Shown here one piece after another: positions 37,947-56,198 of a stretch of DNA of 64,000 nt. Source of the stretch: Rhodanobacter sp. FDAARGOS 1247 (GTDB taxonomy: Bacteria; Pseudomonadota; Gammaproteobacteria; Xanthomonadales; Rhodanobacteraceae); assembly GCF_016889805.1 (NCBI RefSeq), contig NZ_CP069535.1, positions 3,782,001 to 3,846,000 on the forward strand. Direction: 5' to 3'. Under the pieces are notes generated by a model. That model was not told the DNA's origin, made no database searches, and worked only from the letters and a program-made list of their open reading frames with translations. A program made the position numbers and the translations under genes. Numbering within the stretch: the stretch's first letter is position 1; each line of letters starts with the position of its first letter.

Positions 37947-38771
37947 TCAACGATCCAGCGGACTCAGCACGCCATGCCCGCCCCGATTGAGCACATGCGT
38001 ATAGATCTGCGTCGTCGCCACATCCTTGTGGCCGAGCAGTTCCTGCACCGTGCGAATGTCGTAGCCGGACTCCAGCAGATGCGTGGCGAACGAATGGCGA
38101 AGCGTGTGTGCGCTCACCGGCTTGACGATGCCTGCGCGACGACAGGCACCTTTCAGGGATCGCGACAACAGCGCCTCGTCAAAGTGATGGCGACGCTCCA
38201 CGCCGTCCATCGGGTCGAGCGAGCGCTGGCCCGACGGAAACACGAACTGCCAGCCGAATTCCCGCCCGGCGTCGGGATATTTCCGGGCCAGTGCATGCGG
38301 CAGGCGAGCCACGCCGAAGCCGGCAAGCAGGTCATCCTTGTGCAACACCCTGGCGCGCTCGATTTCGCGCTGCAGCGGTTCGACCAGGCTGTTTGGCAGC
38401 ACCGTGCGCCTGTCCTTGCCGCCCTTGCCGTCGCGCACGGTAATTTCATTGCGGGCAAAATCCACATCCTTCACGCGCAGCCGCATGCACTCCATCAAGC
38501 GCATGCCCGTGCCATACAGGAGGCTGGCCAGCAACCAGGGACGGCCCTCCATCTGTGCCAGCACCGCATGCACTTCGTCCCGCGCCAGAACCGTGGGAAC
38601 CCGCCGGGAACGTTTCGCGCGCACCATCGTCTCCATCCATGGCAGGTCGATCCGCAACACTTCCCGGTATGGAAACAGCAACGCCGACAGCGCCTGATTC
38701 TGCGTGCTTGCAGCAACGCCGCCATGCACGGCCAACCCGGAAAGAAAGCCCTCTACTTCGACCGCGCCCAT
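37947..38771 (-). pseudogene. intI: integron integrase IntI, N-terminally truncated
   Basis: A tyrosine recombinase of the integron family. Aligned to IntI1 with a constant offset of 55, every catalytic residue is present: Arg91 (GTGMR), Lys116 (GKGGK), His222 and Arg225 (HTLRH), His248 (LGHKD) and Tyr257 (IYTHV). The IntI-specific insert is also present ([17 protein letters not shown] and RRHH). Residues 1-55, most of the DNA-binding N-terminal domain, are missing: homology ends near the ATG at 38771 and an in-frame TAG (38814-38816) lies in the inverse core of attC1. Orientation opposite to the cassettes is normal for integrons. Probably inactive. Confidence 0.85.
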
Positions 38772-38811
38772 CTCGCGGATGACGCTTTCCGTTCGCCAAT
38801 TGGCTGCGGTG

Positions 38812-38868
38812 GCCTAACAGTTCGTTCAAGGCGGACGGCTGCGCCGCCGCTTAACTCCAGCGTTAGGT
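38812..38868 (+). other. attC1 (left array boundary)
   Basis: GCCTAAC to GTTAGGT around a GGCGG...CCGCC stem. It follows a cassette-like AVA-stop remnant fused to intI, so its own cassette was lost in the deletion. Confidence 0.9.
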
Positions 38869-38875
38869 GTTCAAC

Positions 38876-39256
38876 ATGGTCACGCTGCAGAACGCACTTT
38901 TCGGGCGAATTGCCGACCGCGAGACAGCTATCGACTTGGCAAAGGGGGCCGCCCTTGGGTTCTTTCTGGCGGCCGTATTCGTCACGCTCTTCGCTTTTCT
39001 GGCATGGCCACGTCTGCTCTTTGTCGCAGCCCTATATGCAATTTGTGGGTACTTTACGCGTTACAAATTCAGTCGTCTCGCAGCCGTGGCCGGGGTCAGC
39101 TTGTCAGTTCTTTGTTTTCTGGTTCCCTTTCTGTTTCCGGAGAGCCGGAGTGGCATGGTCTTCGCGCTCGTGATTTGGTTCGGAGTTCGCGGCATCGAGG
39201 CAACATTCAAATTACATGGTAGGTTCTCTCTGCAAAGTTCGTCGCAGAACACCTAA
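38876..39256 (+). CDS. cassette 1: small membrane protein
   Basis: A 126-residue protein with four hydrophobic segments (about 25-44, 46-60, 69-87 and 95-107) and a charged N terminus. Function unknown. The ATG at 38876 follows AGGTG in the attC core; a GTG 9 bp upstream is in frame. Its TAA stop is the one inside the inverse core ACCTAAC. Confidence 0.7.
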   Translation: MVTLQNALFGRIADRETAIDLAKGAALGFFLAAVFVTLFAFLAWPRLLFVAALYAICGYFTRYKFSRLAAVAGVSLSVLCFLVPFLFPESRSGMVFALVIWFGVRGIEATFKLHGRFSLQSSSQNT

Positions 39257-39306
39257 CCATTCGTCCAAGCGGACGGCTTCGCCGCCGCTTAACTCCAGCG
39301 TTAGGC
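39251..39306 (+). other. attC2
   Basis: ACCTAAC to GTTAGGC. The inverse core matches cassette 1's own start TTAGGT. Confidence 0.93.
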
Positions 39307-39314
39307 TGCACAGC

Positions 39315-39692
39315 ATGGACTCGCAGGCAATTGACGATTGGGCAAACGCATACGTTGCCCTGCAACAAGATGGCTCTCGACCGCTAGACGGCCATCAATT
39401 GTTTTGGGCCGCAGAGCGCTTCATGTTTCCAGGGGATACGGCAGACGCCGAGGATTGTTGGGCAACGATCCTGGCGATCCTCGCGCGTGACCCGCCCAAG
39501 AATGTCCTCGGCGTGCTTGCAGCGGGGCCCCTTGAGGACCTTATTCATCATGTCGGGCCAGAGTTCATAGACCGCATAGAGCTTCAAGCGCGCAAAGATC
39601 CTGCTTTTCGTCATTTACTCGGTGGCGTCTGGGCAAGTAGTACGCCCGATATCTGGGTACGTGTAGAGGCGGCACGTGGCACAACGTGGTAG
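39315..39692 (+). CDS. cassette 2: DUF6869-like protein
   Basis: A 125-residue soluble acidic protein. The stretch from LFWAAERFM through AAGPLEDLIHHVGPEFIDRIE to HLLGGVW matches my memory of the DUF6869 family, found in many bacterial genomes and often in variable regions. The role is unknown. The ATG at 39315 is the first after the attC; the stop precedes the next attC by 4 bp. Confidence 0.72.
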   Translation: MDSQAIDDWANAYVALQQDGSRPLDGHQLFWAAERFMFPGDTADAEDCWATILAILARDPPKNVLGVLAAGPLEDLIHHVGPEFIDRIELQARKDPAFRHLLGGVWASSTPDIWVRVEAARGTTW

Positions 39693-39696
39693 TACT

Positions 39697-39753
39697 GCCT
39701 AACATCTCGTTCAAGGCGGACGGCTCCGCCGCCGCTTAACTCCAGCGTTAGGC
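39697..39753 (+). other. attC3
   Basis: GCCTAAC to GTTAGGC, matching cassette 2 start TTAGGC. Confidence 0.93.
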
Positions 39754-39757
39754 CCCC

Positions 39758-40162
39758 ATGACCATCCCGGCGGACCACAAGTTTTTCAATGCATGCAGTA
39801 CGGGCAAATCGGAACTTGTCCGTACACTCCTGGCTGCAGGCGTCGATCCGGAGTCTCGTGACTCCAACCAGTTCACGGGACTTATCTGGGCTGGAAGGAA
39901 GGGGCACATTGATGTCGCTGAAGCTCTTCTTTCCTATGGTGCGAACGCCGAAGCAGGTGATGCTCGCCGCCGCACACCGCTATTTCACGCGACTACGTAC
40001 CAAAGGTATAAGTTCGTACAATTCCTCGCCGCACGAGGGGCAAATCTGACTCCCGTCGACACACATGGTTGGTCGCCGCTTGACTTCTCGCTCTGCAGCC
40101 ATCACAAAAAGATGTCCGAATTGCTCGTTTCCCTTGGTGCAAAAAGCGCGAATTGTGCCTAG
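39758..40162 (+). CDS. cassette 3: ankyrin-repeat protein
   Basis: A 134-residue protein made of about three to four ankyrin repeats, recognisable as LVRTLLAAGVDPESRD, GHIDVAEALLSYGANAE, RTPLFHATTYQRYKFVQFLAARGAN and GWSPLDFS. These mediate protein binding. No signal peptide is present. The stop is TAG within the mutated inverse core GCCTAGC, so the core changed A to G while a stop was kept. Confidence 0.85.
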   Translation: MTIPADHKFFNACSTGKSELVRTLLAAGVDPESRDSNQFTGLIWAGRKGHIDVAEALLSYGANAEAGDARRRTPLFHATTYQRYKFVQFLAARGANLTPVDTHGWSPLDFSLCSHHKKMSELLVSLGAKSANCA

Positions 40163-40213
40163 CAATTCGTTCAAGGCGGACGGCTGCGCCGCCGCTTAAC
40201 TCCAGCGTTAGGT
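40157..40213 (+). other. attC4
   Basis: GCCTAGC (one change from GCCTAAC) to GTTAGGT. The change may weaken the R'' box. Confidence 0.9.
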
Positions 40214-40218
40214 CGCAG

Positions 40219-40560
40219 ATGAGCCACTTCCGTGCATTTGAAGTTGAAGTACTTCGACTTCTTGGCAATGCAACGCTCGGCGAGGCTGTGGTGGCGGCCG
40301 TCTGCCGTGACGCCGAGTTGGTCAGCTTCTACCATTCTGGCGTTGGGTACTTCCTAACCGTTCGCCATCATTTGCTGCCCAAAGCATGCGCGGTTCTTAG
40401 CCAACCGATGGTTCTTGGCCAAGTGGGCGAAGTGGCGGGTAGCTATCTCGTATTCGTGCAAGACAACGAACTCATGCTTGAGTACGCTGGCACAACCGAT
40501 GTCCCAGAAAGCGTCCGAGATCTTCCTGTCAAGGTTGTAGCGCAAGGCGCTGCACCCTAA
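40219..40560 (+). CDS. cassette 4: hypothetical protein
   Basis: A 113-residue soluble protein with no recognised family. The pattern of short beta strands (YFLTVRHHLL, GSYLVFVQDNELMLEYAG) suggests an alpha/beta fold. The ATG at 40219 is 6 bp from the attC core. The TAA stop lies in the next inverse core. Confidence 0.65.
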   Translation: MSHFRAFEVEVLRLLGNATLGEAVVAAVCRDAELVSFYHSGVGYFLTVRHHLLPKACAVLSQPMVLGQVGEVAGSYLVFVQDNELMLEYAGTTDVPESVRDLPVKVVAQGAAP

Positions 40561-40610
40561 CCACTCATCCAAGCGGACGGCTGCGCCGCCGCTTAATTCC
40601 GGCGTTAGGC
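40555..40610 (+). other. attC5
   Basis: CCCTAAC to GTTAGGC; one mismatch to the inverse core expected from cassette 4 start TTAGGT. Confidence 0.9.
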
Positions 40611-40625
40611 CGTAGGGAGCAGGTA

Positions 40626-40970
40626 TTGAACAAGTCTATTGCTAGCTCATTGCTCGCGATGCACGCCCTCGGGAACGTTGCCGCATTCATGTCCAATCCC
40701 GACTATTACCTGTGGGCAACTTTCTCTTTGCTTTCCCTGGCGGTTTGTTGCTTTCTAGTCAACAGACAAGTTGCCAAGCTCGTTGCGCTCTCTTACCTTG
40801 CAATCGGCCTGTATAGCTTCATCGTGGGCATCGCTTTTTTCGATCATGGGCAACTGAGCGGTCTTGGTGTCTTTGCAATCGTTCTGGTCTTTCCGCCAGC
40901 GTTCTACGTGGTCTATCGCGTTTATTCATCCAAGCCAAGAGCGGGTAACATAGCTTCCGGCGTGGCCTAA
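40626..40970 (+). CDS. cassette 5: small membrane protein
   Basis: A 114-residue protein with about three hydrophobic helices (residues 25-44, 51-71 and 79-98). It starts with TTG after a GGGAGCAGG ribosome-binding site. Function unknown. The stop is in the inverse core of attC6. Confidence 0.65.
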   Translation: MNKSIASSLLAMHALGNVAAFMSNPDYYLWATFSLLSLAVCCFLVNRQVAKLVALSYLAIGLYSFIVGIAFFDHGQLSGLGVFAIVLVFPPAFYVVYRVYSSKPRAGNIASGVA

Positions 40971-41021
40971 CCAATCATTCGAGGCGGACGGCTTCGCCGC
41001 CGCTCAATTCCAGCGTTAGGT
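40965..41021 (+). other. attC6
   Basis: GCCTAAC to GTTAGGT, matching cassette 5 start TTAGGC. Confidence 0.93.
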
Positions 41022-41049
41022 TCAGAGGATCGGAAACGAGGTACATGGA

Positions 41050-41364
41050 ATGAGCGAGTACAACCCAGATCGTCCGTACATCCGCGTACAAGACATGGCC
41101 ACCTTCAAGGCCATCGACACTGAAACAGCATCAATGTATGGCCGTACAGTTCGAGCCGCAGAAATTTCTAACGTCGACTACAAGATGCACTTCACTAGGT
41201 TTCATGAGACCTCATCTATGAAGCCGCCACCGAGTTGCGGCAGAATTTTCATGGGCTATGTCGTTGTCCGTAAGCTGGGAAGGCCCGATCAGTATGAAAC
41301 GTGGATGCCTGATCATGTATTCGAAGAGCTCTACGGTCAGCCAGTTTCGACGCCAGAAACCTAA
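41050..41364 (+). CDS. cassette 6: hypothetical protein
   Basis: A 104-residue soluble protein with aromatic and charged residues throughout and no recognised family. The ATG is 29 bp from the attC core, preceded by GAGGTACATGG. Ends with TAA in the inverse core. Confidence 0.62.
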   Translation: MSEYNPDRPYIRVQDMATFKAIDTETASMYGRTVRAAEISNVDYKMHFTRFHETSSMKPPPSCGRIFMGYVVVRKLGRPDQYETWMPDHVFEELYGQPVSTPET

Positions 41365-41415
41365 CATTTCGTTCAAGGCGGACGGCTTCGCCGCCGCTTA
41401 ACTCCAGCGTTAGGC
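41359..41415 (+). other. attC7
   Basis: ACCTAAC to GTTAGGC, matching cassette 6 start TTAGGT. Confidence 0.93.
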
Positions 41416-41420
41416 CGCAG

Positions 41421-41762
41421 ATGAAGAATCTCGACATATTCTTAGACCGGGTCGAATCAGACGGCATTTTCGTCGCAACCAATAATGCTGACGAGGTGCC
41501 GGTCGGCACAGTGTTCACGCAGCTCGTAAGGATTCGCGCCGGGGGTGCCTCCGACGATGGTAGCGGTGTTGAGTTGTCCTCAACCCCTGTTCGCCTCCGC
41601 CTGAGTAGCGCTGTCATTTTTCGTAAGGCTGTTCCGGCAATACCTCGGGGCTGGAGCGCAGGCCTACGCCTAGACGGCACGGGCTTGGATGCAGTCACAG
41701 ATGCACTTTCTGGCAAGATGGCAGGAGAGTTCATTCACCTGCGGGCTGCGGATGCGGCCTAA
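41421..41762 (+). CDS. cassette 7: hypothetical beta-rich protein
   Basis: A 113-residue protein. Alternating hydrophobic strands and the segment VPVGTVFTQL ... VRLRLSSAVIFRKAVPAIPRGWSAGLRLDG recall a small beta barrel, vaguely like translation-factor domain 2, but the similarity is too weak to name. Ends in the inverse core. Confidence 0.62.
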   Translation: MKNLDIFLDRVESDGIFVATNNADEVPVGTVFTQLVRIRAGGASDDGSGVELSSTPVRLRLSSAVIFRKAVPAIPRGWSAGLRLDGTGLDAVTDALSGKMAGEFIHLRAADAA

Positions 41763-41813
41763 CATCTCGTTCGAGGCGGACGGCTACGCCGCCGCTCAAC
41801 TCAAGCGTTAGAC
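41757..41813 (+). other. attC8
   Basis: GCCTAAC to GTTAGAC, matching cassette 7 start TTAGGC. Confidence 0.93.
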
Positions 41814-41825
41814 GCCACAACAAAC

Positions 41826-42053
41826 ATGTCCGAGAACTCTGCGAAGCCCTACGAGGAAACGGTGTCGTGTGAGGCACGGCAAGATGAGGGCGTCATCTTC
41901 ATCAAGGTTGTTGCAATGCCATTCGAGGGTGCGGTCGAGTTCGACACCGCGCAAGCACGCGCATTTGCAAAGCGCATTCTTGCTGCTGTTGAGGTCGTCG
42001 AAAGTGGTTGGGTTGGTAATTCGGGGGCCCCGCCTGTCGCAGGTGGCGTCTAA
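41826..42053 (+). CDS. cassette 8: small hypothetical protein
   Basis: A 75-residue acidic protein with one beta-rich half (GVIFIKVVAMPFEGAVEF) and one helix (TAQARAFAKRILAAVEVVE). Unknown family. This is the shortest cassette in the array. The TAA stop lies in GTCTAAC. Confidence 0.6.
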   Translation: MSENSAKPYEETVSCEARQDEGVIFIKVVAMPFEGAVEFDTAQARAFAKRILAAVEVVESGWVGNSGAPPVAGGV

Positions 42054-42104
42054 CATCTCGTTCAAGGCGGACGGCTTCGCCGCCGCTTAACTCCAGCGTT
42101 ATAC
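42048..42104 (+). other. attC9
   Basis: GTCTAAC to GTTATAC. The inverse core pairs with cassette 8 start TTAGAC; the unusual GTTATAC belongs to cassette 9. Confidence 0.92.
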
Positions 42105-42114
42105 GAGAGACACT

Positions 42115-42527
42115 ATGCGTCGCAGGAAACGCTCGCCCTAAGCATCCTCAGCTTGGCAAGCTGCCAACTGAGCCAGCCGTGTTCAAACATGAGGTTCGAG
42201 CGCTTCAATGGCGCAGACCGAATAGAGATCACCAACCTGAGCAACCAATCGCTTCGGATCATTAGCGGGAAGCATGAAATTCAAAAGTTTGCTGCGTTTG
42301 CTCAAGCGCATGGTTCCGACTGGGCCACGCCGGTCACCGGCACGCCCGTCGCAGAGGTCCGCGCAAATTTTTATTCGGGGGACAAATTTCTTGGCGACCT
42401 CGGCGTAGGCAGCAATTTTTTAACTGCGCAAGGTTACGGCTATTTCCAGAGCCGTACCGTTTCACAGGAAGACCGCAAAGCAATAATGAAGCTATTTGGC
42501 GTGTTAGATCCTTATGCGGCTAAGTAA
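42115..42527 (+). pseudogene. cassette 9: lipoprotein gene with frameshifted signal peptide
   Basis: The main frame (readable to 42527) contains LALSILSLASC, a convincing lipobox with Cys codon at 42162, followed by about 120 residues of a small beta-rich protein. No ATG, GTG or TTG precedes the lipobox in that frame except a TTG inside it. An ATG at 42115 with arginine-rich codons lies one frame off and stops after 8 codons. A single indel near 42120-42135 would join them into a normal lipoprotein signal. Function unknown. Confidence 0.55.
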
Positions 42528-42533
42528 TCAAGG

Positions 42534-42593
42534 GTATAACAACTCGTCCAAGCGGACGCGCGTGCCGCGCGCCGCTTAACTCCAGCGTTAGGC
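42534..42593 (+). other. attC10
   Basis: GTATAAC to GTTAGGC. The rare inverse core GTATAAC is exactly complementary to cassette 9's rare start TTATAC. The stem is the CGCG type (ACGCGCGTGCCGCGCG). Confidence 0.93.
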
Positions 42594-42601
42594 CGCTCTT
42601 C

Positions 42602-42853
42602 ATGACAATGCCGCAAGAACCTGTCCCGGAAGTTGAGGAGTTCCTGTTTGGTTCGGGATTGGTCGTAGACGACTACTATGTGGAGCGCTCGCCAGTCTCC
42701 GAAGTCATCTGCTACGTCAACCGAGATGGCCGCGCTTTCGATCTCCATATCAGCAACGAGAAGCTGGCGTCGGCAGCAATTGAACATCTCTTGAGACTTG
42801 GCGTTCGGGTCGTGACGCTCGGTGGGGTCGCACAAGTAGAGTCCGCGCCCTAA
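42602..42853 (+). CDS. cassette 10: hypothetical protein
   Basis: An 83-residue acidic soluble protein with alternating strands and a helix (NEKLASAAIEHLLRLG). No recognised family. The stop is in the inverse core CCCTAAC. Confidence 0.6.
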   Translation: MTMPQEPVPEVEEFLFGSGLVVDDYYVERSPVSEVICYVNRDGRAFDLHISNEKLASAAIEHLLRLGVRVVTLGGVAQVESAP

Positions 42854-42904
42854 CATCTCGTTCAAGGCGGACGGCTTCGCCGCCGCTTAACTCCAGCGTT
42901 AGGC
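42848..42904 (+). other. attC11
   Basis: CCCTAAC to GTTAGGC; one mismatch to the expected GCCTAAC. Confidence 0.92.
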
Positions 42905-42921
42905 CAAAACTAGGGAGTTCC

Positions 42922-43401
42922 ATGAAGACGCTGCTATCTCTACTTCTGACCCTCCTAGCCTTTCCGGTGCTGGCAACAGGGCCTCAGCTTTCCCCGAATG
43001 CTCCAAAAGACAAGCCGCAAAGTGTACCGCTTGGGCAAATGAGCACCCTTGAGGCAGCGATGGCTCCCTACGTAGCTCAGGCCAGATCCACCTATCCGGA
43101 GGCAAGATCTCGCTTCCTAGCCGGCCTGCCTATTGGGCAATCCTTCTTTGTCACTGCTCGCTTGCACGATGCTTACGGCATGACCGAGCAAGTATTCATC
43201 GCGGTCAGCGCCATCCACAAAGGTATGATCACCGGGCGGATCGCAAGCCAAATCGGTCATGTCTCCGGGTACCGATTTGGCGACCCATACACCTTCTGCG
43301 AGTCCGACCTCCTTGACTGGCTCATCACGCACCCTGACGGCTCAGAGGAAGGCAACGTAGTGGGAAAATTTCTGGATACCTATCAAGGTGACGGTGCCTA
43401 A
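42922..43401 (+). CDS. cassette 11: exported DUF2314-like protein
   Basis: A 159-residue protein with a Sec signal peptide (residues 1-19). Residues 55-130 resemble DUF2314: YPEARSRFLAGLPIGQSFFV, then EQVFIAVSAIHKGMITGRIA and a GYRFGDPYTFCESDLLDW segment. DUF2314 proteins have no established activity. The exported form suggests a periplasmic role. Confidence 0.72.
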   Translation: MKTLLSLLLTLLAFPVLATGPQLSPNAPKDKPQSVPLGQMSTLEAAMAPYVAQARSTYPEARSRFLAGLPIGQSFFVTARLHDAYGMTEQVFIAVSAIHKGMITGRIASQIGHVSGYRFGDPYTFCESDLLDWLITHPDGSEEGNVVGKFLDTYQGDGA

Positions 43402-43451
43402 CAAGTCATTCAAGCGGACGGCTACGCCGCCGCTTAATTCCAGCGTTAGAC
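43396..43451 (+). other. attC12
   Basis: GCCTAAC to GTTAGAC, matching cassette 11 start TTAGGC. Confidence 0.93.
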
Positions 43452-43525
43452 GGCAGAGCTGACTCTTGGCCAGCATCACGCCACGTGTCGTATCGTTGCG
43501 ATTTCGAAGATTCCCGGGGGTACAT

Positions 43526-43776
43526 ATGGGTGATATCACCAAGAAAGAGCTTAAAGACATTGTGTTTGTCACTGCTCACAATGCAGGCGCGCTCACCGAC
43601 GATGTCCAGAGCAAGATTGACGCGCCTTCGACTTCTATACATATCAACGCTTCCTCAAGCTCACCTTAGAGCGGAGAGAGAAAGCAGACCGTACGGGAGA
43701 ACATGGTGGGGGAACTAGGAGCGCAACATCTCTCAGAGAAGCGCTCGAGCACCTTGATTACATTCTTTCCCAATAG
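43526..43776 (+). pseudogene. cassette 12: frameshifted hypothetical gene
   Basis: From the ATG at 43526 the frame encodes MGDITKKELKDIVFVTAHNAG ... SKID and then degenerates into a Ser-rich tail ending at 43669. In another frame from about 43622 a protein-like stretch continues (AFDFYTYQRFLKLTLERREK ... LREALEHLDYILSQ) to a TAG at 43774. A one-base indel near 43618-43626 would make one protein of about 82 residues. The family is not recognised. The remaining 70 bp before the attC are non-coding. Confidence 0.65.
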
Positions 43777-43845
43777 TTACCTCCGGCTTTGAGTACAGGC
43801 CATGCGAATTACGGTTACGCTCCAACCGACGGCGCAACGTGTGCC

Positions 43846-43902
43846 GTCTAACCAGTCATTCGAGGCGGACGGCTCCGCCGCCGCTCAATTCCAGCGTTAG
43901 AC
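43846..43902 (+). other. attC13
   Basis: GTCTAAC to GTTAGAC, matching cassette 12 start TTAGAC. Confidence 0.93.
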
Positions 43903-43908
43903 ACCACA

Positions 43909-44247
43909 ATGAAGGTTCTCATCAAATTGGGAGTCATGCTGGCAGTAGCGGTGCCGGCGTCGTGTCTCGCCCAGCAAGTCGGTGCTTCTGCGCACGCAAA
44001 GAAGTTCAAGGTCCCAACCACGGAGCGCGCTTGCTTGCAAAAGAGCGGCGAGTGGATTCCGGTAATGCCAGGCAACACCACCCACTATTGCTTCATGCTC
44101 ACGAGCGACGGTGGCAAGCCTTGCAAAAACTCAAAAGATTGTCAGAGCGTTTGTATCGCGGAGCCTCGCGGCAACAAGTGCGCTGTCACGTTTACAGGGT
44201 GCTTTCAACCAACGGGGCACGGTACCGTCACGCAATGTGTAAATTGA
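43909..44247 (+). CDS. cassette 13: secreted cysteine-rich protein
   Basis: A 112-residue protein with a Sec signal peptide (residues 1-21, ending CLAQ). The mature part has eight cysteines with spacing like a disulfide-stabilised domain (ACLQKSGEW, HYCF, KPCKNSKDCQSVCI, KCAV, GCF, QCVN). Likely periplasmic or secreted; the role is unknown. Stop is 20 bp before the attC. Confidence 0.7.
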   Translation: MKVLIKLGVMLAVAVPASCLAQQVGASAHAKKFKVPTTERACLQKSGEWIPVMPGNTTHYCFMLTSDGGKPCKNSKDCQSVCIAEPRGNKCAVTFTGCFQPTGHGTVTQCVN

Positions 44248-44264
44248 GCGTATGGGCACGTGGT

Positions 44265-44322
44265 GTCTAACAACTCATTCCAGCGGACGCGCTGCGCGCG
44301 CCGCTAAATTCAAGCGTTAGGG
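44265..44322 (+). other. attC14
   Basis: GTCTAAC to GTTAGGG, matching cassette 13 start TTAGAC. Stem variant GCGCTGCGCGCGCCGC. Confidence 0.92.
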
Positions 44323-44326
44323 CGCA

Positions 44327-44827
44327 ATGGACGCACTCCCGCAAACCAGCCTCACAAAACCTGAGTTGCTGACCATAGCAAAGGGCCTCAGGGCATGCGA
44401 GCCGACCGCAATAGATCGAGCTGTGGCTTTTCTTGTACAGGACAGCCGGGGCAATTGGCACAACCGAGCACACGCCAAGTTCTCTCGTCGGCTTAAACAT
44501 TGCTCGCTTAGTCCTACCCAGTCCAAAGCATTGGTTGGCTGTATCACTGCTCGCTTGGCGCATGGCTACTTCTCTGAGCAATTTGCAGACCAACTCAGAC
44601 TCGCACTGTTCCTCGACCGCGATGCGCTACTTGGCACCGCCACAGAGGCCCTTGGCAGCGTTCTGCCGCATGTTCGGCGGTATGCTGGCTGGGTAATCGC
44701 TTCCCAGGGGGCGGGTTGCGCCCTAACAATTCATTCAAGCCGAAGCCGCTTCGCGGCTCGGCTTAATTCAGGAGTTAGGTGCAATGGACACTGCGCAGCA
44801 AATCGAATGGGCAGCAAAGCAGGTTGA
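44327..44827 (+). CDS. cassette 14: hypothetical protein reading through its attC
   Basis: An ORF of 166 residues. The first ~130 residues form a basic helical protein of unknown family. No stop occurs before the attC, so the frame continues through attC15 and ends inside cassette 15, adding about 35 residues encoded by recombination-site and next-cassette DNA. It overlaps the cassette 15 gene by 44 bp in a different frame. Confidence 0.6.
   Translation: MDALPQTSLTKPELLTIAKGLRACEPTAIDRAVAFLVQDSRGNWHNRAHAKFSRRLKHCSLSPTQSKALVGCITARLAHGYFSEQFADQLRLALFLDRDALLGTATEALGSVLPHVRRYAGWVIASQGAGCALTIHSSRSRFAARLNSGVRCNGHCAANRMGSKAG
44721..44780 (+). other. attC15 (Xanthomonas-like variant)
   Basis: CCCTAAC to GTTAGGT. 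The inverse core is complementary to cassette 14 start TTAGGG. The stem is AAGCCGA...TCGGCTT, different from the array's common GGCGG stem. Confidence 0.92.
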
Positions 44828-49740: not shown

Positions 49741-49804
49741 TTTCCAATCCAGCAACTCGCGTTTCCCAACTATGTGCATCGTCCATCCGTGTTGGATCGT
49801 AACC

Positions 49805-49861
49805 GTCTAACATCTCGTTCAAGGCGGGTGGCTGCGCCGCCGTTTAACTCCAGCGTTAGCG
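49805..49861 (+). other. attC26
   Basis: GTCTAAC to GTTAGCG, one mismatch to the expected GTCCAAC. Confidence 0.9.
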
Positions 49862-49864
49862 CTC

Positions 49865-50221
49865 ATGACACTATTTCGCGTGCTTCTCGCAATTACGTTG
49901 TCCGGCACATCTCTCGCGTCTGTGGCCTGTACGCCTTTTGAGCCAAGCGTCTCGTATGCACAGCAAGCTAGCTTTGCTGCCGTGGGCCATGCTGTCAGTA
50001 ACCGCTGGGTCAGCTCGCGTGGGGAGCTAAGGGTAAGCGTTGCTGTCGACAAGGTTCTTGTGGGGCATGCTCCGGGCCGTTCAGAGGGAGTATCGCCCTG
50101 TGCTTTTCCGATCAAGGAGGGTGCGAGAGTTGTTGTCGCTCGAATCCGTGGCGAGCTTGTTGTCTACCCTGCTGATATGTATGAGCGGTCGTTTCGCCAA
50201 GCTTTTGGCAAGGATCACTAA
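49865..50221 (+). CDS. cassette 26: exported hypothetical protein
   Basis: A 118-residue protein with a signal sequence (about residues 1-21); the cysteine in SVACTPF makes a weak lipobox. The mature part is beta-rich. Unknown family. TAA stop within the inverse core. Confidence 0.66.
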   Translation: MTLFRVLLAITLSGTSLASVACTPFEPSVSYAQQASFAAVGHAVSNRWVSSRGELRVSVAVDKVLVGHAPGRSEGVSPCAFPIKEGARVVVARIRGELVVYPADMYERSFRQAFGKDH

Positions 50222-50271
50222 CCATTCGTCCAAGCGGACAGCTGCGCCGCCGCTTAACTCCAGCGTTAGCC
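50216..50271 (+). other. attC27
   Basis: CACTAAC to GTTAGCC, one mismatch to the expected CGCTAAC. Confidence 0.9.
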
Positions 50272-50290
50272 GTATCGGAGATTCTTTGAC

Positions 50291-50527
50291 ATGAAGCTCT
50301 TTGGTCATCTCTCATCAACTCCAGAGCGGCAGATTCCGCTGGAGCTTTCCGAGGCGACCCTGTCGGCCACCTCCGCGGAGCTCAGGGAAATTGCTGGCTT
50401 TTTGCTCCATGCCGCGAAGGCCATGGATCAGCTCGGGAAGAGCTTTGATCATATGCATCTATCAGACACGTTGCGTCAGTTCGAAAATTCACCAGCCTTG
50501 GTTGTCGCTGTTGGTGCATCTGCGTAA
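50291..50527 (+). CDS. cassette 27: Imm32-like small protein
   Basis: A 78-residue protein: LSATSAELREIAGFLLHAAKAM followed by FDHMHLSDTLRQF and a short beta strand LVVAV. This order resembles Imm32, an immunity family found beside polymorphic toxins. No toxin is adjacent. Similarity is from memory and short, so confidence is moderate. Stop 4 bp before the attC. Confidence 0.5.
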   Translation: MKLFGHLSSTPERQIPLELSEATLSATSAELREIAGFLLHAAKAMDQLGKSFDHMHLSDTLRQFENSPALVVAVGASA

Positions 50528-50530
50528 CGC

Positions 50531-50590
50531 GGCTAACATTTCGTCCTAGCGGACGCGCGTACCGCGCGCCGCTTAACTCCAGCGTTAGGG
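50531..50590 (+). other. attC28
   Basis: GGCTAAC to GTTAGGG. The inverse core is exactly complementary to cassette 27 start TTAGCC. CGCG-type stem. Confidence 0.93.
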
Positions 50591-50595
50591 GACTC

Positions 50596-50925
50596 ATCAG
50601 ACGTATCGCAGCGACAGCAGCCTGTTTTCTACTCTCAGGGTGCGCGAGGCTGCTCGGCCCAACGGACGGCTTCTTTTTCGTCGTCGGCACTACGCCAGGC
50701 AATTCCAGCTGCTGGCTTTCGGTCACCTCTCTTAGTTCCAAAGCCACACTCCAAGAGCGAGTGGTGTCCGGCAACTTCCGGGAAAGTTTCATCGTTGCAC
50801 CCTCGGACAACGGGCACAGAGTTGTGTTGAGCTGCCACAATAGGGTAGTCGCAGGTCGCACATTCAAGTACGGCCACGACGTTCGTGCAGGCGGCGAGCT
50901 CGCGGTCAGTGGCAGCGCCCTCTAA
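50596..50925 (+). CDS. cassette 28: lipoprotein with ATC in place of a start codon
   Basis: An open frame of about 109 residues with no ATG, GTG or TTG at its head. Read from an ATC at 50596, which sits 5 bp after AGGGGA, it gives IRRIAATAACFLLSGCARL: a normal lipoprotein signal with lipobox LSGC. The rest is a beta-rich protein with two more cysteines that ends, like many cassettes here, at TAA in the inverse core. Either ATC initiates poorly or an ATG mutated to ATC. Function unknown. Confidence 0.6.
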   Translation: MRRIAATAACFLLSGCARLLGPTDGFFFVVGTTPGNSSCWLSVTSLSSKATLQERVVSGNFRESFIVAPSDNGHRVVLSCHNRVVAGRTFKYGHDVRAGGELAVSGSAL

Positions 50926-50975
50926 CCCGTCATCCAAGCGGGCCGCTGCGCCGCCGCTTAATTCCAGCGTTATGT
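50920..50975 (+). other. attC29
   Basis: CTCTAAC to GTTATGT, one mismatch to the expected CCCTAAC. Confidence 0.9.
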
Positions 50976-50978
50976 CGC

Positions 50979-51368
50979 ATGAAAATTACCTCGCTAATCA
51001 TTGTCCTTTCACTTGCCTTCAGTGCAACTTCGTGCGCGGCTGCAGCCGCTGCACCGGACAACCCGCTGTCTTGTAATGTCGGTCCAGTTACCAAGTCATA
51101 CGGCGGCGGGCAATGGCTCGTTTATGGCTGCAGCGACGGCAAGAGCGTCGTCCTAGTCACGTCACAAGAAAACCCGGGGTTTCCATTCGTTTTTTCCTTT
51201 CTGTACACCAGCAGCAGCATGACGCTTCATGGCGAAGGCACCGGCAACAAGCAAGCCACGGACGCAGCTTTCAACGAGCTGCAAGCACTTAGCCAAGCCG
51301 ACGTTGCCGCTCTGTTCCAACAAGCAAAAGCACATGCAGCCGCAGGCGCTGGGCCGCACGCGATATAA
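50979..51368 (+). CDS. cassette 29: exported hypothetical protein
   Basis: A 129-residue protein with a signal peptide (residues 1-24; an ATSC sequence could be a lipobox). Two cysteines in the mature part (LSCN, YGCSD) and a C-terminal Ala-rich helix. Unknown family. TAA stop in ATATAAC. Confidence 0.66.
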   Translation: MKITSLIIVLSLAFSATSCAAAAAAPDNPLSCNVGPVTKSYGGGQWLVYGCSDGKSVVLVTSQENPGFPFVFSFLYTSSSMTLHGEGTGNKQATDAAFNELQALSQADVAALFQQAKAHAAAGAGPHAI

Positions 51369-51418
51369 CCAGTCATTCAAGCGGACGGCTTCGCCGCCGC
51401 TTAACTCCAGCGTTAGGC
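51363..51418 (+). other. attC30
   Basis: ATATAAC to GTTAGGC; one mismatch to ACATAAC expected from cassette 29 start TTATGT, both sharing the rare TA. Confidence 0.9.
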
Positions 51419-51426
51419 CTACGACC

Positions 51427-51744
51427 ATGAGTTCACGAATCGCCTTGCTTCTGCTGCCGACGCTACTCCTGGCTAGCTGTGTGCATGTCAAAGAGGCCGA
51501 CGGAGCACGGCGACCGAAGACCGAGATGAGTCAGGCAATTTCAATCGCGCGCTCATATATCCACACCCATAAGATCGACGTCTCCGACCAATTCCTGAGT
51601 AGCGTCACTTCGTTTCATGACGTATATAAGCCGGAGAAGACAGGTTGGCGCCTTGCTTGGGTCCCTGCAGATCCCTTTACCCTCGACGGTGAATGGTCGA
51701 TTTATGTCTACGATGATGGCCACATCAAAGCCGACGGCGAGTAG
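51427..51744 (+). CDS. cassette 30: lipoprotein
   Basis: A 105-residue lipoprotein with lipobox LLASC (Cys near residue 18). The mature part has a helix (MSQAISIARSYIHTHK) and a beta sheet ending WSIYVYDDGHIKADG, a layout like small periplasmic binding or inhibitor proteins. Unknown family. Confidence 0.68.
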   Translation: MSSRIALLLLPTLLLASCVHVKEADGARRPKTEMSQAISIARSYIHTHKIDVSDQFLSSVTSFHDVYKPEKTGWRLAWVPADPFTLDGEWSIYVYDDGHIKADGE

Positions 51745-51856
51745 GCCTAACAGTGCGTTCAAGCCGAACTCGTTTCGCCGCACAAAATTGCGTGGAAGAA
51801 AAAGCTTGCCACCCAATTTGCTCCGCTACACGAGTCGGCCAACTTGGTCGTTAGGC
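51745..51856 (+). other. attC31 (long variant, 112 bp)
   Basis: GCCTAAC to GTTAGGC. Contains an imperfect inverted repeat AAATTGCGTGG/CCACCCAATTT around an A-rich loop. Same length as attC18 and similar outer sequence. Confidence 0.88.
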
Positions 51857-51870
51857 ACCAGAACCAAGAT

Positions 51871-52443
51871 ATGAACTGCCGACACTTGCACGTTATCACC
51901 GGCGCTTCAGGAGCTGGCAAGTCAACACTCATATCCGCATTGGAAAGCCTTGGATACGCCACCGTTCCAGAAGCAGCCCTCGCGATCATGCGCGAGCAAC
52001 GGAGATGCGGTGGCAGAGCGCTTCCTGATGTTGATCGCACAGCGTTTATGGAAGCGGTTCTTGCTCGCAGTATCGAGGACTACGAAACAGCTCTGTCTCT
52101 AAAAGCACCCGTGTTCCTGGATCGCGGTATCCCCGAGTGGTTCCGGTTCCTGGACTCGGGCGACAATCATCGTCAGATGGTGGCGCGCTACCGATATTCC
52201 GTCACGGTGTTTGTGGCGGAACCTTGGCCGGAGATCTATGTCCGCAACCACGAGCGCCAAGCAAGCTTCGAAAGAGCGGCGAGATCTTATGAGGCAACTG
52301 TTTCAGCGTATGTCCAGGCAGGCTATGAAATTTGTGTCATTCCCAAAGCCTCCCTCCAGGAGCGCGTAACATTCATACTCGGCAGAACGGGGCTGGCACC
52401 TAACAATTCCGTAAGAGACTTCCCGTCAATCCCAGCCGCATGA
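51871..52443 (+). CDS. cassette 31: P-loop NTPase (AAA_28-like)
   Basis: A protein of about 190 residues with Walker A GASGAGKST (residues 11-19) and the layout of AAA_28-type ATPases (VPEAALAIMREQ, FLDRGIPEW, VFVAEPWPEIY). These proteins resemble nucleotide kinases; the substrate is unknown. The native frame ran into its attC and would have ended PNNSFKADG-type at the attC stop. The IS insertion replaced that tail with SVRDFPSIPAA and a TGA at 52441. Confidence 0.78.
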   Translation: MNCRHLHVITGASGAGKSTLISALESLGYATVPEAALAIMREQRRCGGRALPDVDRTAFMEAVLARSIEDYETALSLKAPVFLDRGIPEWFRFLDSGDNHRQMVARYRYSVTVFVAEPWPEIYVRNHERQASFERAARSYEATVSAYVQAGYEICVIPKASLQERVTFILGRTGLAPNNSVRDFPSIPAA

Positions 52444-52777
52444 GGCTTTTGCCCTGAGCTTTCGGGCCACTGCTGGTGAGGGTGTTGTTCGATGCTGCGT
52501 ACTGCGTATCAGTGCTGCGCGGCTCCAACGAGTGTCAGGCTGCATTTCCGTCCCGCAAGGGGATTTCCTTCGGTCATAACCGGTCTTGTCGAGTCGGTTT
52601 CGCTGACTCGGACCTCGGTATAAACCGCACCCAAAGACCTCTTTCGTTCATCGGACTGTCCGGTGCCCGGGGATCAGCCGGAACACCGTTTGGACCATCT
52701 GGTCAGTCAGGTTCTCTCTGGGTCGGACTGAACCGTTGTCTACCACTTCGCGCTGACGATGGAACGAAACCTTGTGG
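52411..52777 (-). ncRNA. candidate target-guide RNA (bridge/seekRNA) region of the IS
   Basis: In IS1111 elements the guide RNA is encoded in the long non-coding end downstream of the transposase, which is this segment. TGAACGAA on the RNA strand (plus-strand TTCGTTCA, 52643-52650) is complementary to the attC sequence TTCGTTCA that surrounds the insertion point. An 8-base match is suggestive only. RNA boundaries cannot be set by eye. Confidence 0.4.
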
Positions 52778-53845
52778 CTACGCGGCGTTGGCCGTGTGAT
52801 GTTTCTGGTGCATGGGATGGCTGAGGCAGACGTGCGGATCGTAGTCCACCTCGCGCGCCAGCATCGCCCAGATTTGTCGTGCGTGTTTGTTGGCGATGGC
52901 CAAGGTCACCTTGCCGAACGGCATGCGCCCGTCGAGTGAGCGTATCCACAACTATTCCGGCGTGGCCTTCTCCGGCGCGATGACCTTGGCCCGCTGCAGG
53001 CTGCTGCGGGCGCCCTGGATCAGCAGCGTGCGCAGGTACGCATCGCCGCGGCAGCTGATCTCGCCCAGGTGCACATGCCCGCCGCTGGAATGTTGCGTGG
53101 GTACCAGACCCAGCCAAGCCGCCATCTGCCGGCCCTGCTTGAACTCGCGGGCGTTGCCCACCGTCGCCACCGCCGCGTCGGCGGTGATCGGGCCGATGCC
53201 GGTGACGGCGCGCAGCTGTACACACCGCTCGTCCTCGCGCGCCTGCACCTCGATGCGTGCATCGAACGCGTCGAGGTGCAGGCGCAACCGCTTCCAGTGC
53301 CCGGCCAGATCACGCAACAGCTCCCTGAGCTCGGCTGGCAACCCGGGAGTCCGCCAGCAGGTGGCACAGCGCCCGGTCGCTCGGCGCCACGATCACACCA
53401 AACTCGGCCAGCAGGCCCCGCAGCCGATTGCCGATCGCCAGCGACTCGGCCTTGTAGCCTCGCGGACCCGATGCCAGGACAGGCGCACCTGCTGATCGGA
53501 GTTCTTGACCGGCACGAAGCGCATGTTGCCCTGCCACGCCGCCGTGGCGATCGCCTCGGCATCGGCGCGATCATTCTTGGTCCGACCACTCTTGCGGAAT
53601 GGCGTGACGAACTGGGCCGCCATGATCCGCGGCTGCAGGCCGTACGCCTGGCACCGTCGTGCCCAGTAATGCGCCCCGCTGCACGCCTTCATCGCCACCA
53701 CGGTCCCCGCTGGCCGCTGCGCCAGCCACATGGCAAACGCCTCACGTTTGAGCTCCCGTCGTTCCAGCACGTGCCCGGCGCCATCCATTGCACACACCGA
53801 AAACACGTTCTTCGCCAAGTCCACACCCAGGGTTATAGTGCTCAT
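52778..53845 (-). pseudogene. IS110/IS1111-family transposase, multiply disrupted
   Basis: A DEDD (RuvC-like) transposase. The N-terminal frame shows GVDLAKNVFSVC with the first Asp and KNDRADAEAI with the last ones. The second catalytic position reads MKACSGAH where the family has MEACSGAH, an E to K change. Frameshifts lie near 53460 and 53345, and an in-frame TAG at 52952 interrupts the C-terminal domain, which still shows GIGPITADAAVATVG and an intact tail to 52778. It cannot make active protein. Confidence 0.9.
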
Positions 53846-53987
53846 GGAGACTTCCTCTTCTGCTGACGGTTGTGTCGCAACACCATCATGGCCTTCGAGG
53901 CCGAAAGGGCAGGAAGTCTCTTTTTACTCGTTCAAGGCGGACGGCTACGCCGCCGCTTAATTCCAGCGTTAGATGCACGGAGCGCAT

Positions 53988-54263
53988 ATGTCGCAGGAAA
54001 CTGATAGCACTCACCGGGCAAAGGAAGGCATAGTCATCTGTCTTCGCGATCTTGGCGATGGCCGTTCTCGGTTGATATTCGATGACGTCGTTGCGGACGA
54101 TCCGGCTGCACGAGATCGAGTATGGAGGCACAAAGTCTTCTTTACTCACAATGCGTACTCAAACGACCACTTAGACAGCATGGAGTTGTCAGACCAGCAG
54201 TTTCAAGAAATCGGCGAGGCTGTTGTTGCGCGCCTCTTGGCCATCAATAAACGCTTCAAATAG
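53988..54263 (+). CDS. cassette 32: hypothetical protein
   Basis: A 91-residue acidic soluble protein without recognised family. ATG at 53988 has ACGGAG upstream with good spacing; an ATG at 53973 inside the attC core is in frame. It is the first gene after the IS. Confidence 0.6.
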   Translation: MSQETDSTHRAKEGIVICLRDLGDGRSRLIFDDVVADDPAARDRVWRHKVFFTHNAYSNDHLDSMELSDQQFQEIGEAVVARLLAINKRFK

Positions 54264-54280
54264 GTGGATGCTCGGCGGAC

Positions 54281-54337
54281 AACTAACTACTCATTCGAGG
54301 CGGACGGCTTCGCCGCCGCTCAATTCCAGCGTTAGCG
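54281..54337 (+). other. attC33
   Basis: AACTAAC to GTTAGCG, one mismatch to ATCTAAC expected from cassette 32 start TTAGAT. Confidence 0.88.
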
Positions 54338-54340
54338 CTC

Positions 54341-54733
54341 ATGAAGACCTCCATACTAAAGATTGCTTTCCTCATGTTCCTTACGTCGCCATTTGCGGCG
54401 CGAGCCGGCGAAACTTGCAGGCTTCTGCCAACATGGCATTCAGTTCCAGAGTCTGCGCGCTCTACGCTTGCCCAAGATATGGGCCCAATCGCGGAGCGCG
54501 GTGAAGCCTTCCAATCTACGGATGCGCTCAGCGGCGATGACACTCCCCGGAATCGGTTCTTCGGCGCATGCGTGCAAGGCAATAGACTCGTGGTGGCCAT
54601 CGAGCGGGGCGGCATCGGCTATGCACTTGAGGTCACAGAATTTGTCGGCGGCAAGAAGATTCGCGAGTGGTACCACACTCTTCCCTCAGGCCCATTTACA
54701 CCGGCGTTCGCTGTCCCACCTAGCAAGCGCTAA
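54341..54733 (+). CDS. cassette 33: exported hypothetical protein
   Basis: A 130-residue protein with a signal peptide (residues 1-22, ending ARAG). Two cysteines (ETCRLL, FGACV) and a C-terminal beta region. Unknown family. TAA stop in CGCTAAC. A 139-residue overlapping frame has no signal peptide and is a shadow. Confidence 0.68.
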   Translation: MKTSILKIAFLMFLTSPFAARAGETCRLLPTWHSVPESARSTLAQDMGPIAERGEAFQSTDALSGDDTPRNRFFGACVQGNRLVVAIERGGIGYALEVTEFVGGKKIREWYHTLPSGPFTPAFAVPPSKR

Positions 54734-54784
54734 CCACTCATTCGAGGCGGACGGCTTTGCCGCCGCTCAATTCCAGCGTTAGGC
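54728..54784 (+). other. attC34
   Basis: CGCTAAC to GTTAGGC. The rare CGCTAAC matches cassette 33 start TTAGCG exactly. Confidence 0.93.
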
Positions 54785-54801
54785 CAACGGAGAGACACCT
54801 C

Positions 54802-55374
54802 TTGCGACGAGCTTTGCTCCCCGCCCTCCTGTCGTCCTTCCTCGTTGCCCCGGTCTTGGTGTCTGGCTGCCCGACGGCACCCGCAAGCTTGCGTCAGTTC
54901 TTGGGGCAAGGCGGCTGGGCCGTACTAGGCACCTACGTGGTTTCGCTCCACGATCTCAACGGCGATGGCATCCAAGAGGCAGTGGTCCTGCTTACCGACG
55001 CGGATTGGTGCGGTAGTGGCGGCTGCGCCTTGCTAGTCGCCCAACAACGTGGGGTGGCATGGCAGCTCATCAGCAAAACCACTTTGGTCCATCCGCCGGT
55101 AGTCGCCTTAGAGCGCAAGCGTTCTGGTTGGCAATCCCTTGGTGTCATTGTGGGCGGGGGTGGCGTGGCCACACATCCGGTCACTCTGGATTTTCGGCAA
55201 GGTCGATACCCCTCCAACCCCACCATGCTACCTGCATCGCCAGGCTCATCCACTTCTGGCGAGCCACTCATCAATGGTCTGCAGTGCCAGAGTCGCGCTG
55301 CAAGGCCTAACACCTCGTCCAAGCGGACGCGCGGACGCGCGCCGCTTGACTCCAGCGTTAGGCGAACATGGTGA
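54802..55374 (+). CDS. cassette 34: lipoprotein with EF-hand-like loop, reading through attC
   Basis: Starts with TTG at 54802. Lipobox LVSGC (Cys near residue 22), then DLNGDGIQEAVVLL near residue 52, a calcium-binding-like loop as in FG-GAP/EF-hand proteins, and a CGSGGCALLV segment. No stop occurs before attC35; the frame continues through it and ends at a TGA overlapping the cassette 35 ATG (ATGGTGA). The last ~25 residues are attC-encoded. Confidence 0.66.
   Translation: MRRALLPALLSSFLVAPVLVSGCPTAPASLRQFLGQGGWAVLGTYVVSLHDLNGDGIQEAVVLLTDADWCGSGGCALLVAQQRGVAWQLISKTTLVHPPVVALERKRSGWQSLGVIVGGGGVATHPVTLDFRQGRYPSNPTMLPASPGSSTSGEPLINGLQCQSRAARPNTSSKRTRGRAPLDSSVRRTW
55305..55363 (+). other. attC35
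   Basis: GCCTAAC to GTTAGGC; CGCG-type stem, with CTTGACTCCAG on the right arm. Confidence 0.92.
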
Positions 55375-55652
55375 TTGACGAAACTTTCAATGCTTTCTCA
55401 GCGGTTGGCGACGAAGCGTCGCTCATTAAATTTGTCGAGTCGCTCGCGGCCGACCGGAAGCTATCCGAGTCTTTGTCAGTGACGCTTGACGGGTTTCAAG
55501 GCGCTTGGGCCAACCAAACCATCGCCGACTTTTTGTTGGCGGCATCTGCATGGGCAAAGGATTCAGACTTCGGCGTGCGTCCTGGCCCCAAGCCCGCCAA
55601 TCCATGGCAGCTTTTTGCTACCTTCTTGTGGGCCGGGCGTGGCTACGAGTAG
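55368..55652 (+). CDS. cassette 35: DUF7660-like protein
   Basis: A 94-residue soluble protein. WANQTIADFLLAASAWAKD, PANPWQLFATFLWAGRGYE at the C terminus matches my memory of the DUF7660 family (W.N.T...L.A...W and a terminal YE). Function unknown. Confidence 0.68.
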   Translation: MVIDETFNAFSAVGDEASLIKFVESLAADRKLSESLSVTLDGFQGAWANQTIADFLLAASAWAKDSDFGVRPGPKPANPWQLFATFLWAGRGYE

Positions 55653-55655
55653 CGC

Positions 55656-55720
55656 GCGTAGCATCACGTTTGAACTGCCCAATTGATCAGTCTTCATCGA
55701 AGCACTCCCGGGCGTCAGGC
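55656..55720 (+). other. attC36 (degenerate)
   Basis: GCGTAGC to GTCAGGC with a loose stem. The right core GTCAGGC is complementary to the inverse core of attC37, supporting it as a real but decayed site. Confidence 0.6.
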
Positions 55721-55726
55721 AGCGCA

Positions 55727-56149
55727 ATGAAGCGACTGTGGCCATGGATGTATTTATCGCTTTTCGCAGCCGCCTTTCTTGGCGGCCTGTCGCTCCTGGG
55801 CAGAACTCAAGGTCACACCAACGTCGACTGGGTGTTCGTAACCGTCTCTTTCTTTGGCCTCCTGGTCTTTCCACCCCTGGCGGTCGGGTATGCACGCTCA
55901 CGCACTTCAACCCGTCTTCCCACCGCATCGCTTTCCCGAGGGTTTCGCGGCGGGTGGTGGGCAGACCCGTTGCAGTACCTTCGTGTAACCAGCCTGTTGC
56001 TTGGCGGCATGTTCCTTGGCTCGCTGTTTACGTTGCCCCATGCCGCATCGCAGGACGTCATGATGGTGTGGTGGTACGCCGCGATGGCACTTGGCTCAAC
56101 GACAGGCGAGTTCGTCGCGCTCAGGACGTTTCGTGGCAGCGTTGCCTGA
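55727..56149 (+). CDS. cassette 36: membrane protein
   Basis: A 140-residue protein with four hydrophobic segments (residues 5-24, 33-52, 83-103 and 111-131). Unknown role. ATG 6 bp after the attC36 core. The TGA stop lies in the inverse core GCCTGAC. It is the last cassette of the array. Confidence 0.65.
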   Translation: MKRLWPWMYLSLFAAAFLGGLSLLGRTQGHTNVDWVFVTVSFFGLLVFPPLAVGYARSRTSTRLPTASLSRGFRGGWWADPLQYLRVTSLLLGGMFLGSLFTLPHAASQDVMMVWWYAAMALGSTTGEFVALRTFRGSVA

Positions 56150-56198
56150 CCTCTCGTTCGGGGCGAACGGCTTCACCGCCGCGCATTCCGGCGAGTCG
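56144..56198 (+). other. attC37 (degenerate, right array boundary)
   Basis: GCCTGAC, a recognisable GGCGAACGGCTTCACCGCCGC stem and a decayed right core (GCGAGTC). Beyond it the sequence returns to chromosomal composition. Confidence 0.65.

Follow-up and report, generated by a model that had tools for sequence, protein, structure and literature searches.

The stretch of DNA analysed here comprises 64,000 nucleotides of Rhodanobacter sp. FDAARGOS 1247 (contig NZ_CP069535.1, positions 3,782,001 to 3,846,000; the window, from whose first letter we count) and, judged by its sequence, contains a real but inactivated chromosomal integron: an array of small gene cassettes bounded by attC recombination sites, next to a broken integron integrase gene, intI. 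The first-pass annotation of this DNA had described 37 attC sites in one orientation with 36 cassettes. A covariance model of attC (R1; 60 positions, 22 pairs), trained on 37 of 43 listed sites from Lysobacter, Arenimonas, Luteimonas, Pseudoxanthomonas and Thermomonas records and one Proteobacteria metagenome-assembled genome, recognised 35 of these repeats at 38812..55363, all on the + strand. Since no training record is labelled Rhodanobacter, this match provides independent support. The first site (38812..38868, +, 53.3 bits) lies 13 nucleotides (nt) past the end of the intI homology. An insertion sequence has split one attC, whose right half is the site at 53918-53974. The single orientation thus stood, whereas the count did not: the two further candidates score at chance level with R1, one at 55677-55720 (4.8 bits, E=8.9) and one at 56162-56210 (5.6 bits, E=5.5 on the + strand; 8.3 bits, E=0.98 on the - strand), leaving a possible decayed terminal attC at 56145..56200 (+) unsupported by the model. 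The supported layout consists of 35 sites, 34 intervals and a terminal stretch of about 0.8 kb.

The repeats share a conserved fold. Standard pairs make up 92.0% of the pair cells against 81.7% after shuffling, the covariation score is 0.245 against 0.104, and two-sided cells number 70 against 23.6, none of 500 shuffles being as high in any of the three. Two other measures were not clearly raised: pairs with two-sided change (12 against 10.0; 41/500 shuffles as high) and further pair types (29 against 26.1; 48/500). The alignment used for these values was fitted by the model and has 39 rows, including four weak - strand rows of the R1 output that are shadows of the same + strand sites. As first noted, the composition of the array is unlike that of its flank: GC content is 0.53-0.59 over most of the array compared with 0.64-0.74 across the first 37 kb of the window (37 bins of one kb each), with one exception inside the array, a bin at 53-54 kb (0.66) which holds the insertion sequence. 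Beyond the array, R1 found no attC match in the 64 kb at E values up to 1, and the copies elsewhere in the genome bound cassettes and form cassette arrays, which rules out ordinary intergenic palindromes occurring without cassettes. No Rfam family reached its threshold in the window; attC sites are not expected among Rfam families.

The integrase gene points away from the array and is crippled, as originally proposed. Its open reading frame (ORF; 37947..38771, -) encodes 274 amino acids (aa) that match TIGR02249 with E=1.8e-124 over model columns 41-314 of 315 and align with residues 45-319 of IntI4 (2a3v), through the C-terminal end. The N-terminus is gone and the frame is broken at the 5' end, while intact IntI proteins of 13 relatives measure 331-336 aa. 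Homology to the intI genes of these relatives starts at 38798 with a 2-nt deletion, so that the short piece upstream of the ATG (38772..38798, -) is out of frame with the ORF and reads LANGKRHPR in another frame. A comparison of the locus in related genomes, suggested at the outset, revealed intact intI copies at the same position in other Rhodanobacter records. In intact relatives, the gap between intI and cassette 1 contains a promoter-like pair, the presumed cassette promoter (Pc), and an attI site ending in GGGTCTAMTWAGCGTT; in one of them (L003), the pair reads, by eye, TTGACG, 17 nt, GAACAT. Both attI and Pc-like hexamers are absent between the intI end and the first attC of the window, no sigma-70-like match was found in 38700-39000, and each of the genome's three attI matches is at another locus. 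The genome holds no integron integrase over the cut-off besides the truncated copy, the second match reaching 78 bits and falling below it. We infer that the truncated IntI is inactive. That it still works and the integron is not dead seems very improbable to us: the retained part does align with IntI4 to its C-terminal end, but the N-terminal part is missing, the 5' frame is broken, and neither a promoter-like site nor attI is left.

The integron was reported to lie between ndvB and zwf. The right flank is indeed zwf (56602..58008, +; TIGR00871, 6.5e-141). The left flank (29191..37917, +) encodes a 2908-aa GH94/glucoamylase-domain protein (Pfam GH94_b-supersand 3e-169, Glyco_hydro_94 1.6e-115, Glycoamylase 8.4e-18) that has no NCBIfam match at 1e-10, so the placement is borne out and the name ndvB is one that we take to fit. 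The last 3 kb of this flank (34918-37917) are 96.9% identical to Rhodanobacter spathiphylli B39 (L009), whereas the window intI (37947-38798) is only 77.8% identical to that strain and comes nearer to Rhodanobacter sp. Soil772, at 83.6%. The flank and the intI allele beside it thus differ in history, and by their sequences intI alleles appear to have been exchanged at a fixed locus. Such relatives place the host in Rhodanobacter and not in Xanthomonas.

Outside the window, R1 revealed seven further attC places in this genome, four larger arrays (B, 21 sites; C, 23; D, 7; E, 4) and three small ones with 2, 2 and 1 sites. The genome total, window included, is at least 95, which is 99 rows minus the four opposite-strand rows and includes two weak sites (17.4 and 22.4 bits). 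All our attC counts are lower bounds, as 150 candidates were scored per genome in this search, whose places alone entered the total of 95, and 121 in the genus survey below. Arrays B, C, D and E, each of two or more attC sites with no integrase close by, correspond to clusters of attC sites lacking integrases (CALINs), while the broken intI adjoins the window array. Arrays B, C and E carry attI and Pc-like hexamers directly ahead of cassette 1 without intI, a head that the window array itself does not have, and the three attI matches of the genome coincide exactly with these three heads. B and C retain, by eye, a degenerate 5' piece of intI that is too weak for tblastn at E 0.01. Array D has no attI match and shows only a similar end sequence, CTACTTAGTGTTAGGCC. 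A small array (L087) has intI pieces (residues 1-57 in parts) and no attI match. The attI of array E is of a second type, resembling that of a locus in another genome (L058). The same L058, where a full-length intI is present, has a flank that matches 998 bp upstream of array C at 97.4% identity; here, an insertion element (by eye) lies between this flank and an attI of the first type, so that the platform at C has itself recombined. A single recent duplication giving rise to both B and C was rejected, as their identity is 86% (298/346) up to -330 and then drops to 57%, the level of unrelated sequences.

An integron is usually described as one integrase with one adjacent attI. For the Rhodanobacter genome studied here, we think it probable that the integron is distributed, with one integrase serving several attI platforms in trans, and that in this strain the only integrase found is the broken one. 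This reading builds on the anatomy of the arrays, the lack of any other intI match, orphan attI sites at orthologous loci, their differing cassettes and the sharing of cassettes within genomes, all of which are observed; catalysis in trans, the activity of Pc and the order of the losses are what we infer from them. The chromosome would bear several platforms at fixed loci, each made up of Pc, attI and a cassette array, with an intact intI kept at only one or a few platforms per species. Made at one locus, the integrase would reach every attI and attC site in trans, and platforms lacking their own integrase could thereby gain and lose cassettes and exchange them with one another. Along with the 5' part of its intI, the ndvB-zwf platform of the window would have lost both Pc and attI; with no intact integrase to act on its 95 or more attC sites, the genome would be expected to have frozen arrays.

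We surveyed 45 Rhodanobacter genomes and called an attI match without intI within 2 kb an orphan. There were intI matches in 37 and attC matches in 43 of the genomes, and the attI pattern gave 83 matches in 36 of them, against 8 for the reversed pattern. While 28 attI sites lie within 2 kb of an intI match, 55, found in 28 genomes, are orphans. Nearly all of these (53) occur in genomes with an intI match elsewhere, and 42 in 20 genomes with a full-length one. At least 2.4 kb of upstream sequence is present at all 55, and the missing intI is therefore not due to contig ends. A profile of the 75 nt before attI, which were not used in the attI search, was built from 16 of 19 intact relatives (the three without a located attI were dropped) and placed 49/55 orphans above the maximum (6.5 bits) of 2005 random controls. 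An attC match follows within 2.2 kb downstream in 39 orphans, and nine more reach a contig end within 600 bp. One orphan attI (L130; G023 contig 10, at about 2673) lies in the middle of an array, flanked to left and right by attC sites of the same strand, which gives the impression of two fused platforms. In other genera of the order, exact attI matches away from the only listed intI were seen, among the matches listed, for instance in G235, G193, G204, G115, G308, G234, G322 and G283. Another genome (G168) has four copies of one attI-like variant, with one mismatch to the pattern, and one intI; the one-mismatch control was noisy.

The upstream flanks of the orphans sort into ten cross-species groups, with 77.3-97.6% identity in 48 pairs. 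Downstream, 44 of these pairs share no segment longer than 100 bp, and the other four share distal sequence. In group 2, three genomes of one or two contigs have both flanks in common and different arrays between them, the right flank beginning about 4203 (G001), 2420 (G044) and 923 bp (G008) after attI. An intI-less junction is common to the members of groups 2, 3 (4/5 members) and 7, in a comparison that excludes group 4, part of group 5 and part of the alignments of the group of orphan L110. We further computed an identity profile from 24 pairs of seven of the ten groups (groups 8-10 and members with differing junctions were left out), which gave 88.4% for the flank, 81.0% for positions -200 to -90, 72.9% for -90 to -60 and 85.6% for Pc/attI. 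Cassettes could be compared in 17 of the 24 pairs, and in all 17 the first 280 nt after attI are unrelated (59.6% identity; unrelated baseline 59.0%, maximum 64.6%). Different cassettes thus lie at attI in 17/17 pairs, including loci with a shared intI-less junction, which indicates cassette turnover after local intI loss. At three orphan loci, other species have an intI gene. One is the ndvB-like locus, which is orphan in L107; the group 5 locus has intI in L008, L010, L011 and L020, and the array C locus has it in L058. We lean towards a wider form of the same reading, in which attI-Pc platforms at conserved loci of Rhodanobacter, and probably of other Xanthomonadales, are filled, expressed and reshuffled by an integrase that only one or a few of the platforms encode, and the platforms persist while the locus that encodes it varies by species.

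Cassette sharing provides a second line of evidence. In the window strain, A4 of the window array (40207..40603, +) equals B12 (98.2% over 454 nt, preceding attC included, ending at its own attC) and A33 (54331..54777, +) equals B18 (99.2% over 500 nt, preceding attC included, ending 2 nt before the end of its own attC). Likewise, B10 matches the seventh cassette of array C (C7; 98.5% over 458 nt), and the fourteenth (C14) lies within E2 (99.2% over 376 nt of body; 96.2% over 470 nt with the att sites). All these matches stop within 3 nt of the end of the cassette's own attC. Since the array E locus lacks intI in two other genomes as well (L143 and L141), the C14/E2 sharing is, on this comparison, best explained by action in trans, with homologous recombination as the remaining alternative. 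Among the genomes compared, orphan and intI-linked arrays have cassettes of 95% identity or more in common in 5/33 same-genome pairs and 0/402 cross-genome pairs (Fisher p=1.9e-6, with pairs treated as independent). The intI-linked side consisted of 14 regions of 12 other genomes plus the window array with its broken intI, and the orphan side of 29 arrays: 25 regions of other genomes together with B, C, E and D (the last without an attI match). The count was restricted to segments of 200-900 bp, cassette borders were checked for the L110/L150, A4 and A33 pairs, and the pair B13/C16 (99.7% over 1191 nt) was left out as a probable insertion element. At orphan L110 (in G007), cassette 1 is 100% identical over 348 nt to a cassette inside an intI-linked array, from the crossover side of attI into its own attC.

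Several findings weigh against an integrase acting in trans. In the window genome, shared stretches start inside or before the preceding attC and not at the crossover, so homologous recombination between attC repeats is an alternative for them. That such recombination, or the import of array pieces, exchanged the cassettes in general seems unlikely to us: the attC repeats within arrays are alike enough to recombine and the shared cassettes of the window genome often match through the preceding attC, but at L110 the identical stretch begins within the 16-base attI motif, 6 nt left of its end, and the donor-like array has a preceding attC that is unlike attI further left. Conservation of Pc/attI (85.6%) is only modestly above that at -200 to -90, and no higher in group 1 and in three of six group 4 pairs. 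Seven orphans have room downstream and no attC match, and at least one of them (L142) resembles a chance match. Several orthologous orphans stop at contig borders, with arrays that are therefore short or unseen, and many of the 48 pairs have little downstream sequence. A shared intI-less junction was clearly seen only in the three groups named above, L112 keeps a longer intI remnant, and intI is incomplete in all four group 2 genomes (model columns 1-279 in G001, 1-304 in G008, 109-314 in G043 and 113-314 in G044). Finally, 11 of the 55 orphan attI sites keep a short adjoining piece of intI and are therefore decayed integrons at least in origin.

This last point also bears on two further explanations. 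Under the first, a single sedentary integron was inactivated among unrelated dead CALINs, and the attI sites are fossils without action in trans. It would account for the 5' pieces of intI at those 11 orphans and for the incomplete intI of the window genome and of six other genomes of the genus with a match, and CALINs have been proposed to be degraded integrons in the available text of PMC9024848. We nevertheless give it a small chance, as orthologous orphan loci hold different cassettes joined at attI and near-identical cassettes are common within genomes and not between them. Under the second, the orphan platforms lost intI in separate and recent events, by which time their present cassettes had already arrived, with no need for action in trans; intI remnants do vary in length among loci, and three loci still carry intI in other species. 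A shared junction across species with differing cassettes in groups 2, 3 and 7 makes this improbable, as does L110, which has about 24 residues of intI left and yet holds at attI a cassette that is identical to one elsewhere in its genome. An integrase serving several platforms in trans is thus the reading that we prefer.

The sedentary chromosomal integrons at the ilvD locus of Xanthomonas are among the closest known counterparts. As described in the accessible part of PMC12444791, they resemble the present system in their fixed locus, an intI that is often broken or deleted, mostly unknown genes and additional CALINs; most intI genes examined there were inactive, and CALINs occurred in about half of the genomes at few conserved loci. 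The differences are that here the host is Rhodanobacter and intI lies beside an ndvB-like gene, that the three extra arrays carry their own Pc and attI, which that part of the source does not describe for Xanthomonas, and that cassette turnover in Rhodanobacter could be traced by orthology. CALINs as portrayed in the accessible text of PMC9024848 share the attC arrays without a nearby integrase gene, whereas the orphan platforms of Rhodanobacter keep attI and Pc. In Shewanella (PMC9229058, available portion), CALINs and single attC sites likewise lie far from intI, in genomes with and without it, but the clusters are short, mostly of two sites, and no attI is described in that portion. Mobilisation of CALINs in trans is stated to occur in the available text of PMC12444791, and according to that of PMC9668308 CALIN cassettes can be excised or captured in trans. 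Rhodanobacteraceae integrases were among the prevalent IntI classes in the samples covered by the accessible part of PMC9176274. Our literature search, which mostly did not reach subscription journals, turned up no paper describing attI-Pc platforms without intI at conserved loci, and this is weak evidence of novelty. The window integron is in itself ordinary though inactivated, and its genomic context supports several attI platforms per integrase.

If attI platforms outlive the integrase and stay active in trans, many of the arrays currently classed as dead CALINs may still be live, with their genes expressed. The chromosome would then offer promoter-proximal positions at several places, and the loss of intI from a single locus would be a poor guide to how active the integron of that genome is. 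A distributed integron would also make the purpose of CALINs testable. No intact integrase was found in the window strain despite its 95 or more attC sites. The strain would represent the end point of this process, and relatives whose intI is intact could be compared with it as a naturally frozen control.

Regarding the cassette contents, the first-pass annotation had considered most of the encoded proteins uncharacterised, and our Pfam searches agree. We scanned 35 cassette ORFs, leaving out the window cassette at 43445-43895 (labelled C12), for which no clear ORF was chosen, and only seven reached the Pfam cut-off, two of them with domains of unknown function (DUFs). These are, all on the + strand, DUF6869 (39315..39692, 6.4e-36), ankyrin repeats (39758..40162, Ank_2, 2.2e-22), a Tsi6 immunity-like protein (44784..45080, 2.6e-09), an RraB family member (47585..47938, 1.1e-21), an Imm32 immunity-like protein (50291..50527, 5.8e-07, 29.8 bits with a cut-off of 27), an AAA_28 P-loop protein (51871..52443, 8.6e-35) and, as the last cassette ORF with a family, DUF7660 (55368..55652, 6.1e-08). 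Despite the Tsi6-like and Imm32-like immunity cassettes, no toxin family turned up among the scanned cassettes. PADLOC models, run on ten cassette ORFs, matched only the ankyrin protein (PDC-M72A, 2.7e-15, columns 236-355 of 392), apart from weak P-loop cross-matches. Two window cassettes have no clear forward ORF, C12 and the one at 50584-50968 (C28).

The insertion sequence within the array (52449..53918, ends by eye) lies inside an attC and is of the IS110/IS1111 type, with its transposase on the - strand. The frames are broken, and one fragment (53396-53845) matches the DEDD transposase family DEDD_Tnp_IS110 (PF01548) at 5.5e-12, in line with the IS1111-attC group. In the available portion of PMC11187229, the attC-targeting elements ISKpn4 and ISPst6 likewise combine a DEDD transposase with a repeated position in attC; unlike them, the window copy is broken. 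Similar left ends occur at the same attC position at the ends of two other small attC places, L087 (at about 3345) and L089 (at about 3835). We had considered a conserved array-end sequence as a new type of site; the repeat beside L087 and L089 is better explained as insertion sequence left ends like that at 52449. The 3' ends of arrays B (L083) and D (L085), on the reverse strand, carry a common transposase element, IS3-like by eye, at the same attC position.

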